From positions 62,001-126,000 of the forward strand of contig JAJPGV010000041.1 of assembly GCA_021325635.1 (NCBI GenBank): a DNA stretch of 64,000 nt, given 5' to 3'. Positions 40,603 to 53,728 of this stretch are shown here, piece after piece. Below the pieces are notes generated by a model, which worked only from the letters and a program-made list of their open reading frames with translations, did no database searches and was not told the origin of the DNA. The DNA is from Chloroflexota bacterium. GTDB lineage: Bacteria > Chloroflexota > JAJPGV01. How positions within the stretch are numbered: the first letter of the stretch is position 1; each line of letters begins with the position of its first letter. The position numbers and the translations under genes are program-made.

Positions 40603-40944
40603 CTAGTCGAACAGCTCCCGTTGCTCTCGCAGCGGGTCACTGTCCGGCTCGTTGGGAGGAGCTGGTGATGGGCTCTCCGGAGGCGTGACATCCTTCTCAG
40701 AGACGACCGGTTTGGTGGCGTAGCCGCCATTGGCGCGGCTCAGGAGCTGCGTCACCTTCAATTCCACGCCGTCGAGCTTTTCCAGGCAGTAGCGAGCCAG
40801 GAACGAGCCTCGCTCGTAGAGGCGCAAGGTCTCATCCAACGACAGCTGACCCTGCTGCAGGGCGGCGGCGGTTTGTTCCAGCTCGGCGTAGGCTTGCTCA
40901 AAGGTCAGAGCGGGCTCGGCTGGCCCGCTCACCGACTCAGCCAC
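40603..40944 (-). CDS. xseB: Exodeoxyribonuclease VII small subunit
   Basis: Small helical subunit that assembles with XseA for single-stranded DNA degradation. The core LTFEQAYAELEQTAAALQQ, then GQLSLDETLRLYERGSFLARYCLEKLD is the full family signature. At 113 residues it is longer than the usual 60-80 because of a charged Pro/Glu-rich C-terminal tail. The GTG start overlaps xseA by eight bases. Confidence 0.93.
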   Translation of the reverse strand: MAESVSGPAEPALTFEQAYAELEQTAAALQQGQLSLDETLRLYERGSFLARYCLEKLDGVELKVTQLLSRANGGYATKPVVSEKDVTPPESPSPAPPNEPDSDPLREQRELFD

Positions 40945-42220
40945 GGTCCGCGCCGGCGGGCTGGGCCGCGAAAGGCGACGTCGCGGCCGGCAGGGCTTGG
41001 ACGGTGCCGGCAGTTTCCGAACGCCCGTCCTGCTGTCGGGTGGTTTCGACGCTGATGCGGCCGTCCGCCACCTGGATCTCCAGCGGGTCCCCAGGTTGCG
41101 CCTGGCTGGTGCTGCTCACCACATGGCCGCGGGGGTCGTAGGTGATGGAGTAGCCGCGCTCCAGCGTGGCGTAGGGGTTCATGAGCGCAAGCCGCTGTTC
41201 GACACCGTTCACCCGCTCCCGCCGCAGGGCCAGTCCATGCCGCAGGCAGGTTTCGAGGTTGTCGTGCAGTGCAGTGACGCGCTTGCGGTCGTGCTCCAGA
41301 CGGGCGCGCGGGGAGTTGTTCTCGACAGCTGCCTGAAGCGTGCCGACACGCTGCCGAAGGTGGCTGATGCGTGTCGGCAGGAGGGCATCGAGCTGCTCCT
41401 GGTATCGCTTCAGCTTGGCGACCTCGCCCTGCAGGTCGGGAACGGCCAGCTCGGCCGCGATCGACGGCGTTGGCGCCCGGACGTCGGCCACCAGGTCGGC
41501 AATCGTCACGTCGGTCTCGTGTCCAACGGCGGAAACGACGGGTGCACGAGAGGCGAAGATGGCCCGCGCCACCCGCTCGTCGTTGAACGGCCACAGCTCT
41601 TCCAGCGAGCCGCCTCCGCGGGCCACGATGATCAGCTCCACCAGGCGCGACTCGTTCAGCGCGCGCAGCGCCGCCACAACGCTCGGAGCGGCCTGCTCGC
41701 CACTCACGAAAGCCGGAGCCAGCACGAGCTGGCAGGCGGGGTACTTGCGGCGAATGACGTTGACGATGTCGTGCAGCACGGCCCCCGTTGGCGACGTGAC
41801 GACGCCGATCCTCCGAGGCCAGCGCGGCAGGCGCCGTTTGCGCTGCTGATCGAACAGGCCTTCGCACGTCAGCCGGGCCTTCAGCTGCTCGAACTGCAGG
41901 TGCAGCTTGCCGACGCCTTCCGGCTGGATGAGGTCTGCCACGAGCTGGAACAGGCCGCGCGACTCGTACACGGCCACCCGGCCATGAACGACCGCGGCCA
42001 TGCCATTGCTCGGAGCCACGGCTTGCAGCTCCATGGCTTGGCGGAACAGGACGCAGTTGATCTGGCCCTCACGGTCTTTGAGGGTGAAGTAATGGTGCCC
42101 CTGTGGGGACCGAGTGACGTTTGAGATCTGCCCCTGGACCCACACGTCCTGGAGCATCGGATTGGACTCGAACAGCTCGCGCAGATAGCGAACGAGCTGC
42201 TCGACCTTCAGGATGCGCAT
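40937..42220 (-). CDS. xseA: Exodeoxyribonuclease VII large subunit
   Basis: Catalytic and DNA-binding subunit, 427 residues. The N-terminal OB-fold (VQGQISNVTRSPQGHHYFTLKDRE) precedes the nuclease core (PRRIGVVTSPTGAVLHDIVNVIRRKYP, IVARGGGSLEELWPFND, VVSAVGHETDVTIADLVADVRAPTPS). A coiled-coil region (about 255-330) and C-terminal strand follow. It sits 69 bases downstream of the accB-like gene, where accC is often found in other bacteria. Confidence 0.95.
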   Translation of the reverse strand: MRILKVEQLVRYLRELFESNPMLQDVWVQGQISNVTRSPQGHHYFTLKDREGQINCVLFRQAMELQAVAPSNGMAAVVHGRVAVYESRGLFQLVADLIQPEGVGKLHLQFEQLKARLTCEGLFDQQRKRRLPRWPRRIGVVTSPTGAVLHDIVNVIRRKYPACQLVLAPAFVSGEQAAPSVVAALRALNESRLVELIIVARGGGSLEELWPFNDERVARAIFASRAPVVSAVGHETDVTIADLVADVRAPTPSIAAELAVPDLQGEVAKLKRYQEQLDALLPTRISHLRQRVGTLQAAVENNSPRARLEHDRKRVTALHDNLETCLRHGLALRRERVNGVEQRLALMNPYATLERGYSITYDPRGHVVSSTSQAQPGDPLEIQVADGRISVETTRQQDGRSETAGTVQALPAATSPFAAQPAGADRG

Positions 42221-42289: not shown

Positions 42290-42745
42290 TCATGGCTCCT
42301 CGGGGATCATGGTCAGCAGCGCCTGGCCGTACTCGACCGGCTGCCCGCTGCGAACCGCGATCTCGATCACCTCGCCGGAAAGCGGAGCTTCGACTTCGTT
42401 CATGATGTCCATCGCTTCGATGAAGCCCAGGACGTGGCCCTTGGTCACCTGCTGGTGCAGGGTCACGACCGGAGTGCCGCGCTTGTCGCGCGCCGCGTAG
42501 AACACACCGACGAGGTGCGCTTTCACCGGCACACCGGCGGCCGGAGCGTTTTCCTCTTCCACCTGCTCCTGCGCATCGACGTTCGGCTCGACCTGGGCCG
42601 CGCCCTTTCGCAGCACGAGCTTGCGGCCCGCCCGCTCGACGCTGAGATCGGTGAGGTCGCTGTGATGGAACAGCTCGATCAGGGCTATCACGTCCTCACC
42701 GAGGACGGATCGCGCGGCTCCGGTGGATGGATCAGTCTCGGCCAT
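42290..42745 (-). CDS. AccB-like protein lacking the biotinylated lysine
   Basis: Homologue of the biotin carboxyl carrier protein of acetyl-CoA carboxylase, 151 residues: an N-terminal helix (DVIALIELFHHSDLTDLSVE), a Pro/Ala/Glu linker, and a C-terminal biotinyl domain. The attachment motif reads EAMDIMNEVEAP instead of EAMKMMNE; codon GAC (42407-42409) replaces the lysine codon, needing two base changes from AAG. The rest of the barrel (HVLGFI, LSGEVIEIAVRSGQPVEYGQALLTMI) is well conserved. As written it cannot carry biotin in the usual way. Order pepP-efp-accB is typical, but accC is absent. Confidence 0.85.
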   Translation of the reverse strand: MAETDPSTGAARSVLGEDVIALIELFHHSDLTDLSVERAGRKLVLRKGAAQVEPNVDAQEQVEEENAPAAGVPVKAHLVGVFYAARDKRGTPVVTLHQQVTKGHVLGFIEAMDIMNEVEAPLSGEVIEIAVRSGQPVEYGQALLTMIPEEP

Positions 42746-42765: not shown

Positions 42766-43323
42766 CTAGGCGCGCTCGATGTACTGCCCGGTGCGGGTAT
42801 CGATGCGAATGCGCTCACCCTGGTTGACGAACAGCGGCACGGCCACGGTGGCTCCGGTGGACACCTTGGCAGGCTTGTTGCCCCCGGTGGCGGTGTCGCC
42901 CTTGAAGCCCGGGTCGGTTTCGATGACTTCGAGCTCCACCGTGATCGGCAGCTCGACGTCGATCGGCTCGTCGCCGTAGGTCATCAGCTCCATGGTCATG
43001 TTTTCGGTCATCCACTTGACGTTGTCGCCCAGGATGTCCTTGCCGAGGGTGAGCTGATCGAACGTTTCCGTATCCATGAAGTGGTACTGGCCATCGTCCT
43101 CGTACAGGAACTGCACGGAATGGTGGTCCAGCCGGATGCGGGGGAAGCGCTCGCCCGCCTGCACGGTGCGCTCGACGTTTGACCCGGTGCGAACGTTGCG
43201 CAGCTTCATGCGCACCTGGGCGCTGCCTCGTCCGAGCTTCAGATGGGTGTACTCGAGCACCTGCCAGAGCTCGTTGTCCAGCTCGATGACGAAGCCTCGT
43301 TTGAGCTCGCCAGTGCTAATCAA
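42766..43323 (-). CDS. efp: Elongation factor P
   Basis: Binds between the P and E sites and helps ribosomes through polyproline. The 185 residues form three beta domains. The loop tip reads KLGRGSAQ, with Arg32 where enterobacterial EF-P has the modified Lys34; the layout resembles the Thermus type. No earP, epmA/B or other modification gene is nearby. The start is TTG with GGAGG six bases upstream. Many proteins in this window have Pro-rich linkers, its likely clients. Confidence 0.96.
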   Translation of the reverse strand: MISTGELKRGFVIELDNELWQVLEYTHLKLGRGSAQVRMKLRNVRTGSNVERTVQAGERFPRIRLDHHSVQFLYEDDGQYHFMDTETFDQLTLGKDILGDNVKWMTENMTMELMTYGDEPIDVELPITVELEVIETDPGFKGDTATGGNKPAKVSTGATVAVPLFVNQGERIRIDTRTGQYIERA

Positions 43324-43388: not shown

Positions 43389-44477
43389 TCAAATCCGCGG
43401 GTCCTTGGTGGCCTTGTTGACTACCTCGAGTCCATTTTGACGTACGAAGCAGATGTCCTCGATACGCACGCCACCCCATTCCGGCAGGTACACACCCGGC
43501 TCGACCGTGACGGTCATGGACGGCTCGAGCGTCAGGGTGCCGCTTGGTCCCATGGTGGGCGCCTCATGCACTTCCAGGCCGACCCCGTGCCCCAAACCAT
43601 GGCCGAACTGCTCGCCGTAGCCGGCGCTGGCAATGACCTGGCGCGCGTACTCGTCGCCCCGCCGGGCTTCGATGCCCGGCACGATCCGCTGCTCCGCCGT
43701 CGTCTGCGCGTCGAGCACCAGCGCATAGATCTCCTCGAAGCGGCCATCGGGCGGCCCGATGCAGACGGTGCGCGTGATGTCCGAACAGTAGCCCTGGTAC
43801 TTGGCGCCGAAGTCGCACACGATGGGCTCGCCGGAGCGGATCTCGCGCTCTGAGATGCCATGATGGGGCTTGGCGGCGTTGGGACCGGACGCGATGATGG
43901 TGGGGAACGACAGGGCTTCCGCGCCCTCCTCACGAATGAGCTGCTCCAGCCGCCAGGCGACCTGTCGCTCAGTTAGACCGGGCTTGATCGACTCTCGCAG
44001 CTTCGCCCAGGCGTCATCGACGACGCGCACGGCCTCGGCGATGATGGCCAGCTCCTGCTCGTCCTTGACGGCGCGCAGGCGCTCGACGAGCTGCTCTGTC
44101 GGGACAAGGTCGACGCTCGGCCCGGCCGCCTGCAGCCCTTCGAGCCAGGCGGCCTGACCAGCGACCGTCATGTGCTCGGCTTCAAAGCCGATGCGGCTGC
44201 CGCCGGCTCGCTCCAGGATCGCCCTCAGTCCCTGCTTGGGGAAGCCGCGCTCGATGCGAACGAACTCGTAGTCGGGCGCCTGCTCCGGGCCCTGCGTCAT
44301 GTAACGGAAATCGCTGAGCAGCAGCGCTGCCCGTGACGAGATGAGCAGGTAGCCGGCCGAACCGGTGAAGCCGCTCAGGTAACGGCGATTTTCCGGCTGA
44401 CTGACCAGCAGCGCATCGAGCTGCTGCTTATCGAGCTCGTCACGAACCCGCCGAATACGCGCGGGGATGTCGAACAT
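43389..44477 (-). CDS. Xaa-Pro aminopeptidase (M24 family)
   Basis: Metallopeptidase removing N-terminal residues before proline. An N-terminal creatinase-like domain (about 1-130) is followed by the pita-bread fold: the metal ligands are in CDFGAKYQGYCSDITRT (two Asp), FGHGLGHGVGLEVHE (His) and VEPGVYLPEWGGVRIED (two Glu). The 362-residue length is of the short PepQ/YqhT-like group. It leads the pepP-efp-accB-like run; efp begins 65 bases downstream. Confidence 0.93.
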   Translation of the reverse strand: MFDIPARIRRVRDELDKQQLDALLVSQPENRRYLSGFTGSAGYLLISSRAALLLSDFRYMTQGPEQAPDYEFVRIERGFPKQGLRAILERAGGSRIGFEAEHMTVAGQAAWLEGLQAAGPSVDLVPTEQLVERLRAVKDEQELAIIAEAVRVVDDAWAKLRESIKPGLTERQVAWRLEQLIREEGAEALSFPTIIASGPNAAKPHHGISEREIRSGEPIVCDFGAKYQGYCSDITRTVCIGPPDGRFEEIYALVLDAQTTAEQRIVPGIEARRGDEYARQVIASAGYGEQFGHGLGHGVGLEVHEAPTMGPSGTLTLEPSMTVTVEPGVYLPEWGGVRIEDICFVRQNGLEVVNKATKDPRI

Positions 44478-51862: not shown

Positions 51863-53728
51863 CTACTCCCTGTGCCCCACGAAGGGGACCTGCGCCAGCT
51901 CGCTGACGCGCTGCGGGTCCGGCTCCGGCTGGGCGATGGGTCCCATGGCCCGATACTTCTCCCGCCGCCGGCGCACCAGTGCCTCCGGATCGCCGGCGTC
52001 GATGCCGGCAAGCTCCATTCGCAGCGCCGTGGCAAGGTTCGCGCAGCAGGCAGCGTAATCACGATGCGCGCCCCCCACCGGCTCAGGCACGATCCCGTCG
52101 ATCAAGTCCAGGGCTTTGAGCTCCTGGGCGGTAACGCGCATGGCTTCGGCCGCCTGCGGAGCGAAGGCAGAGTCACGCCAGACGATGGCGGCGCAGCCCT
52201 CCGGGGAGGCGACCGAGTACACGGCGTGCTCGAGCATGAGGACGCGATCGCCCAGACCGATGGCCAGCGCTCCGCCGCTGCCGCCTTCTCCGATGATCGT
52301 CACGATGACCGGCACGTGCAGCGAGAGCATGGTGAGCAGGTTGCTGGCGATGGCTTCGGCCTGGCCTCGTGATTCGTCGTCCATGACCGGCGAGGCGCCC
52401 GGGGTATCGGGAAAGCACAGCACCGGCAGGCCAAAGCGTTCCGCCAGCCGCATCAGGCGCTGCGCCTTGCGGTAGCCCTCGGGATGGGCCATGCCGAAGT
52501 TTCGGAACACGTTCTCTCGCGTATCCCGACCCTTCTGATGCCCAATGACCATTACCGGGCGTCCGGCCAGTCTGGCCGGACCGCCGACGATAGCGGCGTC
52601 GTCGCCGAAGCGGCGGTCTCCGTGCAGCTCTATGAAGTCGGTGAAGACGCCCGCGATGACTTCGTTCAGATGGATTCGAGCCGGGTGTCGCGCCACCTGG
52701 ACCTTCTGCCACGGCTTGAGCTGCCGGTAGAGCCCGGCTAGCTTCTCCCGCAGCGTCTCTTCGAGCTGCGCCGATCGCTGCTGGGCCCGAGCGTCGCCTT
52801 TCGCGGCGTGCTTGTATGCGTCACCCAGCTGGTGCTCGACGTCGGCCAGGGTGTGTTCGAAATCCAGGAGCTTGACCCCTGCGGAGGCGGCTGGGGTCTG
52901 GACCGCCGGCCGCTCCACTGACTCCGGCAGCGCTTGGCCGCCGAGGAGGCGCACCAAGCGAGTAACGGTGTCACGCAGCTCCGGCCGTGGAACGACGGCG
53001 TCGATCATGCCGTGGGCCAGCATGTACTGCGAGTCCCGCTCGTCGGCGCCGACTTTGTGCTTGGTCGTCTGCTCGATGACCCGCGGGCCAGCAAACCCTA
53101 TCGCCGCTCCGGGCTCAGCCAGGATGACGTCGGCGATGGAGACGAAGCTGGCCGTAACGCCGGCATACGTCGGATCGGTGCAGATGCAGATGAATGGCAG
53201 CCCGGCCTCAGCCAGGCGCGCCGCGGTGGCAGTAGTCTTGGCCATCTGCATGAGGGAAAACAGCCCCTCGTGCATGCGCGCGCCGCCGGAGGTGGCAAAG
53301 ATGACCAGGGCGCAGCGCTCGGCCAGCGCCCGCTCGAAGCTGCGCGCAATCTTCTCGCCCACGACGCTGCCCATGCTGGCGCCAAGGAAGGAAGCATCCA
53401 TGACCGCCAGCACGATGGGCTCGCCATCGAGCCGAGCGGTTCCGTAGACAATGGCCTCCGATAGGCCGGAGGAACGACGGGCTTCGACCAGCCGGTCGGG
53501 ATATGACTTTTCCTTGGCGATGAAGCGCAGCGGATCGGCGGACGCTATGTCCGCGTCCAGCTCGCGAAAGCTGTTGGGGTCGGCAAACTGCTCGATGCGC
53601 TCAGGCGCGCGTAGGCGGAAGTGGTACTGACACTTGTGGCAGACCTGGAGGTTCTTAGTCAGCTCTCGCTGATAGAGCAGCTCACCACAGCGGGTGCACT
53701 TGACCCAGAGGACCGGCCCTTCGCTCAA
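51863..53728 (-). CDS. Acetyl-CoA carboxylase carboxyltransferase, beta-alpha fusion
   Basis: A 621-residue fusion of AccD (about 1-270) and AccA (about 300-600), which transfer CO2 from biotin to acetyl-CoA. The AccD zinc ribbon is complete (Cys11, 14, 30, 33), and SFERALAERCALVIFATSGGARMHEG and PTYAGVTASF are typical. The AccA half has FIELHGDRRFGDDAAIVGG, VIGHQKGRDTRENV-type, FPDTPGA and IGEGGSGGALAIG. Fusion fixes a 1:1 ratio; such AccDA forms occur in a few lineages. It precedes neither accB nor accC in this window. Confidence 0.94.
   Translation of the reverse strand: MSEGPVLWVKCTRCGELLYQRELTKNLQVCHKCQYHFRLRAPERIEQFADPNSFRELDADIASADPLRFIAKEKSYPDRLVEARRSSGLSEAIVYGTARLDGEPIVLAVMDASFLGASMGSVVGEKIARSFERALAERCALVIFATSGGARMHEGLFSLMQMAKTTATAARLAEAGLPFICICTDPTYAGVTASFVSIADVILAEPGAAIGFAGPRVIEQTTKHKVGADERDSQYMLAHGMIDAVVPRPELRDTVTRLVRLLGGQALPESVERPAVQTPAASAGVKLLDFEHTLADVEHQLGDAYKHAAKGDARAQQRSAQLEETLREKLAGLYRQLKPWQKVQVARHPARIHLNEVIAGVFTDFIELHGDRRFGDDAAIVGGPARLAGRPVMVIGHQKGRDTRENVFRNFGMAHPEGYRKAQRLMRLAERFGLPVLCFPDTPGASPVMDDESRGQAEAIASNLLTMLSLHVPVIVTIIGEGGSGGALAIGLGDRVLMLEHAVYSVASPEGCAAIVWRDSAFAPQAAEAMRVTAQELKALDLIDGIVPEPVGGAHRDYAACCANLATALRMELAGIDAGDPEALVRRRREKYRAMGPIAQPEPDPQRVSELAQVPFVGHRE

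Follow-up and report, generated by a model that had tools for sequence, protein, structure and literature searches.

Fatty-acid synthesis draws its committed intermediate from heteromeric acetyl-CoA carboxylase (ACC). In plants, a protein without the biotinylation motif, BADC, binds BC and the carrier protein BCCP and has been proposed to act either as an assembly subunit or as an inhibitor; the source also calls BADC unique to the plant heteromeric ACC (PMC11926652). Actinobacterial acyl-CoA carboxylases, such as that of Thermobifida fusca, contain a non-catalytic subunit in a biotin-dependent carboxylase complex (PMC7835884, in excerpt), for which the excerpt of PMC11926652 uses the term 'glue'. 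As far as these excerpts describe it, that subunit offers a parallel to the protein considered here, in that both would be non-catalytic subunits of a bacterial biotin-dependent carboxylase. The actinobacterial subunit is not known to be a BCCP homologue. In Chloroflexus aurantiacus, which belongs to the same phylum as our sequence, ACC is also heteromeric and comprises a BC with fused BCCP and a separate BCCP that has the biotinylation motif; the excerpt of that paper contains neither a Lys-less BCCP nor the term BADC (PMC11077971). A survey of the open literature by title and start of abstract, with subscription papers mostly outside its scope, likewise returned no Lys-less bacterial BCCP.

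Here, we describe an AccB (BCCP) homologue with aspartate in place of the biotinylated lysine, encoded in a 64,000-nucleotide stretch of DNA (hereafter the window) from a Chloroflexota bacterium (contig JAJPGV010000041.1, positions 62,001 to 126,000). We propose, with a probability of about 0.74, that this protein and its Lys-less relatives are non-catalytic BCCP-like subunits of heteromeric ACC that aid assembly in the manner of plant BADC. The gene, its main features, and the genes of the window that bear on the argument are as follows.

42290..42745, minus strand: Lys-less AccB (BCCP-like) protein, 151 aa, ATG to TGA (from the ORF, TIGR00531, and the predicted fold)
42407..42409, minus strand: Asp113 codon GAC at the biotinylated-lysine position (from the sequence)
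42323..42337, minus strand: codons of V137-E-Y-G-Q141, an AccB motif (coordinates by arithmetic)
42608..42721, minus strand: N-terminal helix (residues 9-28) and beta hairpin (33-46) (from the model; coordinates by arithmetic)
42766..43323, minus strand: efp, conserved upstream neighbour
43389..44477, minus strand: pepP-type aminopeptidase, conserved neighbour (name by recognition)
40937..42220, minus strand: xseA, conserved downstream neighbour, single-copy in the genome
40603..40944, minus strand: xseB
51863..53728, minus strand: accD-accA fusion (carboxyltransferase of ACC), 621 aa, on the same contig about 9 kb from accB

Residues 110-117 of the protein read E-A-M-D-I-M-N-E, and the GAC codon would need two changes to become AAA or AAG, just as the first-pass annotation of this DNA had read the site. 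The protein matches the BCCP model TIGR00531 (E 2.3e-23, 83.4 bits) and passes the Pfam Biotin_lipoyl cut-off (38.4 bits against 22.1), and its identity as an AccB is thus not a matter of chance. However, it differs from E. coli-type AccB in that the biotinyl lysine of EAMKM is absent and in that it falls under the curated equivalog cut-off of TIGR00531 (115.2 bits). Because there is no lysine in the translated sequence at site 113, biotinylation there is excluded. The protein is also divergent in other respects, with end branches of 2.28 and 2.86 in the trees and a histidine where Gly97 stands in 94-100% of the group profiles. The window genome is represented by one assembly (63 contigs, 96.43% complete, 3.95% contamination), from which Asp113 is known, and the relatives compared with it belong to the same phylum, none of them being closer. 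A stray contig was also considered as an origin of the gene, and the single copy of xseA in the genome speaks against it.

The AlphaFold2 model (mean pLDDT 78.9) consists of an N-terminal helix, a hairpin, a low-confidence linker, and a biotinyl domain with a pLDDT of about 94-98. In Foldseek, the modeled biotinyl domain superimposes on E. coli BCCP 4hr7_G at an rmsd of 0.6 A (TM 0.96 by target) and on Arabidopsis BCCP1 9a87 at 0.7 A. The predicted domain also retains the thumb of the BCCP fold, as the segment is equal in length to that of E. coli when counted by eye on the alignment. The likeness to E. coli AccB (4hr7, 1bdo) extends to the N-terminal part, whose helix and hairpin are alignable, and to the related sequence VEFDE at the position of the VEYGQ motif.

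The gene lies 20 bases from efp upstream and 69 bases from xseA downstream, and the earlier observations that xseA is its neighbor and that no accC lies beside it are both correct; the sole accC match above the TIGR00514 cut-off is on another contig of the genome (C60). A search for a second AccB with EAMK, which the first-pass annotation had suggested might be encoded elsewhere, found EAMKIFNE on contig C6 (G000:C6:21118-21339, minus strand), adjoining fabH. Counting this copy, accC, and the accD-accA fusion, the genome encodes every catalytic component of a heteromeric ACC even without the Lys-less AccB. The fusion itself encodes a zinc-ribbon CT-beta followed by CT-alpha.

The same arrangement occurs widely in the phylum. 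A profile built from 18 Lys-less proteins, all 18 of which match TIGR00531 and which share 24-33% identity with the window protein, has matches in 205 of 400 Chloroflexota genomes at E <= 1e-12. We counted as locus copies those AccB genes with pepP, efp, or xseA beside them, taking the first such copy per genome; neighbors outside the window were recognized by tblastn to proteins of the window, of two further loci (L039 and L079), and one FabF-like protein. Of the 109 genomes read at this pepP-efp-[accB]-xseA locus, 68, belonging to 15 families, have a residue other than lysine at the site (N 36, G 18, Q 6, R 5, D 3), and the other 41, from 10 families, have lysine; no family is mixed. The Lys-less state is therefore shared by orthologues in 15 families, and the outcome that would have spoken against the first-pass annotation, lysine in all orthologues, did not occur, although these relatives are related at the level of the phylum and are not the close ones it had in mind. 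Copies of one genome sharing their last 60 residues were collapsed, leaving 186 proteins. Two further Lys-less families have their copies elsewhere: f10, in which no locus genes were seen nearby, and f20, whose motif set includes a copy from G048 that is absent from the 186 proteins. Only five of 80 named loci, drawn from many phyla, are Lys-less (L137, L151, L175, L185, and L195); all five are from Chloroflexota and include Ktedonobacter robiniae SOSP1-30, with N at the site, and a Thermogemmatispora MAG; these 80 loci were chosen partly by the peptide GQPVEYGQ and represent neither a census nor a measure of VEYGQ frequency outside Chloroflexota. The viral contigs that were searched gave no match.

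Such a distribution bears on the question of whether the gene is merely an old copy that lost its lysine after a second AccB arose and is now decaying, or whether Asp113 is an assembly error. The long branch of the window protein and the loss of some of its near-invariant residues would agree with decay. However, the 68 Lys-less locus copies, spread over 15 families, are listed without internal stops, and the two codon changes needed also argue against error. Sequencing or assembly error is accordingly rejected for the family and stays a small possibility for the window codon itself. Moreover, Lys-less copies in three genera have median dN/dS values far below 1, namely 0.10 (all 15 pairs usable), 0.13 (9 of 10 pairs), and 0.16 (all 15 pairs); their Lys twins give 0.12, 0.18, and 0.14, respectively. 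In each of two other sets, at most one pair of Lys-less copies could be used. Purifying selection thus acts on the Lys-less copies as it does on their biotinylatable twins, as measured in three genera other than that of the window protein, which has no congener. For the family, decay is largely refuted, and we regard this explanation as very improbable overall.

The Lys-less locus copies are regularly accompanied by a Lys-bearing twin. The second copy was read in 50 of the 68 genomes (the other 18 being unread), and in all 50 it is a Lys AccB beside accC, fabF, or fabH. In four families whose locus copies were all read as Lys (f13, f22, f53, and f57), a single profile match was found in 41 of the 42 genomes listed, by hand tally. 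Among the 41 Lys-locus genomes, further copies were read in four (G126, G304, G328, and G388), and these lie outside such clusters, with their lysine set in atypical EVMK or GVMK motifs. In family f48, efp-locus Lys genomes (L312, L313, L314, L315, and L323) encode one or two extra AccB-like proteins with EVMKLMH or GVMKTFH outside the fatty-acid-synthesis (FAS) clusters. At L305 (G388:C8), an AccB-like domain with LEVMKTYHEV and VEYGQ occurs in a long frame that, by eye, looks like a biotin-dependent carboxyltransferase of either PxpB/PxpC or urea amidolyase type.

The two kinds of copy have degenerated in a complementary manner. The second signature of the AccB domain, V-E-Y-G-Q at residues 137-141 of the window protein, appears as VE[YF]G in all 41 Lys copies at the locus; single-copy AccBs have both features. 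In Lys-less copies, E-[YF] is kept in 73 of 75 proteins outside f20 and in 25 of 25 within it, whereas it is absent from 62 of the 64 Lys copies of the FAS group, the exceptions being the third copy of G062 and G403 (a single-copy genome that is included in the 64), and from all 25 Lys copies of f20. A clean split is seen in 63 of the 65 genomes with both kinds read, and the window genome follows it, with VEYGQ in the Lys-less protein and VEADQ in its Lys twin. Weighted by family, each of the five residues is present at 96-100% in its column among Lys-less copies, in profiles that omit six Lys copies outside the FAS and locus contexts. The persistence of E-[YF] in proteins only 24-33% identical to that of the window is a further argument against decay. 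Plant BCCP, too, is not known to have VEYGQ, and BADC has a YGD-like form. As a counterpoint, two Lys-less copies depart from the motif (VQYGQ in G015 and VGYGQ in G273), and the third copy of G062 (L329, G062:C171), which adjoins accC alongside the split pair, has both Lys and VEYGQ.

E. coli AccB is said to control acc transcription through its N-terminal part, and a specialized AccB devoted to such control would be expected to retain the N-terminal part that the window protein does retain and that aligns with the E. coli one. However, the strongest conservation falls in the C-terminal biotinyl domain (VG.F, G124, and VEYGQ), and family searches with the window protein reported no DNA-binding domain; it is quite improbable that the protein is an autoregulator of this kind.

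Gene order connects the Lys-less copies with ACC more directly in other families. In f20, the cluster reads accB*-accC-fabF-accB-fabH (G048 and G115), with the Lys-less gene (accB*) directly upstream of accC; the stop of the former and the start of the latter share one base (TGATG) in 15 of 18 resolved junctions, 25 loci having been tried and seven left unresolved by the pattern used. In G230 and G216, two of the 29 f17 genomes searched, a single strand carries accC, Lys-less accB, and Lys accB in succession. Judged by eye, a biotin synthase-like ORF (L214 46-1068) lies beside this row in G216 and a phosphoketolase-like ORF (L211 2519-3601) comes after it in G230. Gene order in f20, G216, and G230 thus supports a tie of the Lys-less copies to ACC, from which physical membership may be presumed. 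However, most loci, including that of the window, place the gene beside efp and xseA and not beside ACC genes. The stable linkage to efp could be taken to mean that the protein moonlights with a partner outside ACC, for instance EF-P or a different carboxylase. Since the Lys copies of single-copy families share the same locus, the efp linkage is independent of lysine loss, and Lys-less copies stand beside accC in f20, G216, and G230; we therefore consider such a partner extremely improbable.

The same genomic evidence would also fit a Lys-less subunit that competes with its biotinylated twin for places on AccC and lowers ACC activity, the ratio of the two setting flux. Inhibition is one of the two models published for plant BADC, as given in the excerpt of PMC11926652, and the separation of the two genes in most genomes would allow their independent control. 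However, the overlap of the Lys-less stop with the accC start in f20 speaks for a part of fixed stoichiometry and not for an inhibitor of variable amount, and the twin, having lost VEYGQ in turn, may need its Lys-less partner. We infer that the direction of the effect is assembly aid rather than inhibition, and an inhibitory role appears unlikely to us.

The trees give a limited view of the history. In a tree of 132 rows, most Lys-less copies fall in a few groups and the window protein sits on a long branch with its place unsure. A second tree, of 62 rows, drew on no more than two Lys-less and two locus-Lys rows from each family plus a single FAS-Lys row (two in f20) and excluded G403, L329, and rows with fewer than 110 filled positions; in it, neither a single clade of all 27 Lys-less copies (p-AU 0.864) nor one of the 16 Lys twins (p-AU 0.887) was rejected. 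One duplication with reciprocal loss is therefore possible. The weak resolution of the tree also means that the counts given above may rest on few evolutionary events; two ancient losses could explain the motif pattern, and its informative part is what selection has kept since.

Taken as assembly aid, the Lys-less AccB would have arisen as follows. An ancient duplication of AccB in Chloroflexota would have come first. Of the two copies, the one in the FAS cluster, beside accC, fabF, and fabH, would have retained the biotinyl lysine but not the VEYGQ surface, and the one at the old pepP-efp-xseA locus, or adjacent to accC in f20, would have retained VEYGQ and the N-terminal part but not the lysine. 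The Lys-less subunit may then take places in the AccC-AccB subcomplex and hold it together, while the Lys twin alone would carry carboxybiotin; the retained parts (N-terminal part, barrel, and VEYGQ) would serve assembly, and the part lost would be the catalytic one. The earlier suggestion of a structural or regulatory part of ACC is thus supported by the Lys-less orthologues, the twin, and gene order, and physical membership in the complex is probable.

Plant BADC serves as our working analogue and is compared by description; a plant BCCP-like fragment used as a query matched only E. coli BCCP entries. Like BADC, the window protein has a BCCP-like domain without the biotinylation motif, and a biotinylatable BCCP is present in the same organism, as it is in all 50 genomes in which the second copy was read. 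Unlike BADC, it is bacterial, is encoded at the pepP-efp-xseA locus or, in f20, overlapping accC, and keeps VEYGQ. Binding to BC and BCCP within ACC, as described for BADC, is suggested here by gene order. A bolder version, which we put forward tentatively and at somewhat less than even odds, is that in much of Chloroflexota BCCP has split by complementary degeneration into an obligate pair, a carrier without VEYGQ and a lysine-less partner that supplies it, with the VEYGQ loop as an ACC assembly face, and that this is an independent bacterial invention of the plant BCCP/BADC split.

A Lys-less AccB that selection maintains beside a normal copy suggests that a single protein of fatty-acid synthesis has had its two jobs divided between a pair of proteins. 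The motif patterns and gene order suggest that this division of labor extends to the level of the phylum, a wider finding than the first-pass annotation stated. Annotation may take Lys-less genes, which score as AccB homologues, for working AccB and so mislead metabolic reconstructions. The split pair bears on how the carrier protein is held in heteromeric ACC: the carrying residue has been separated from a second conserved surface in many families, and each function may therefore be tested alone, with Ktedonobacter robiniae SOSP1-30 providing a cultured host in the group.
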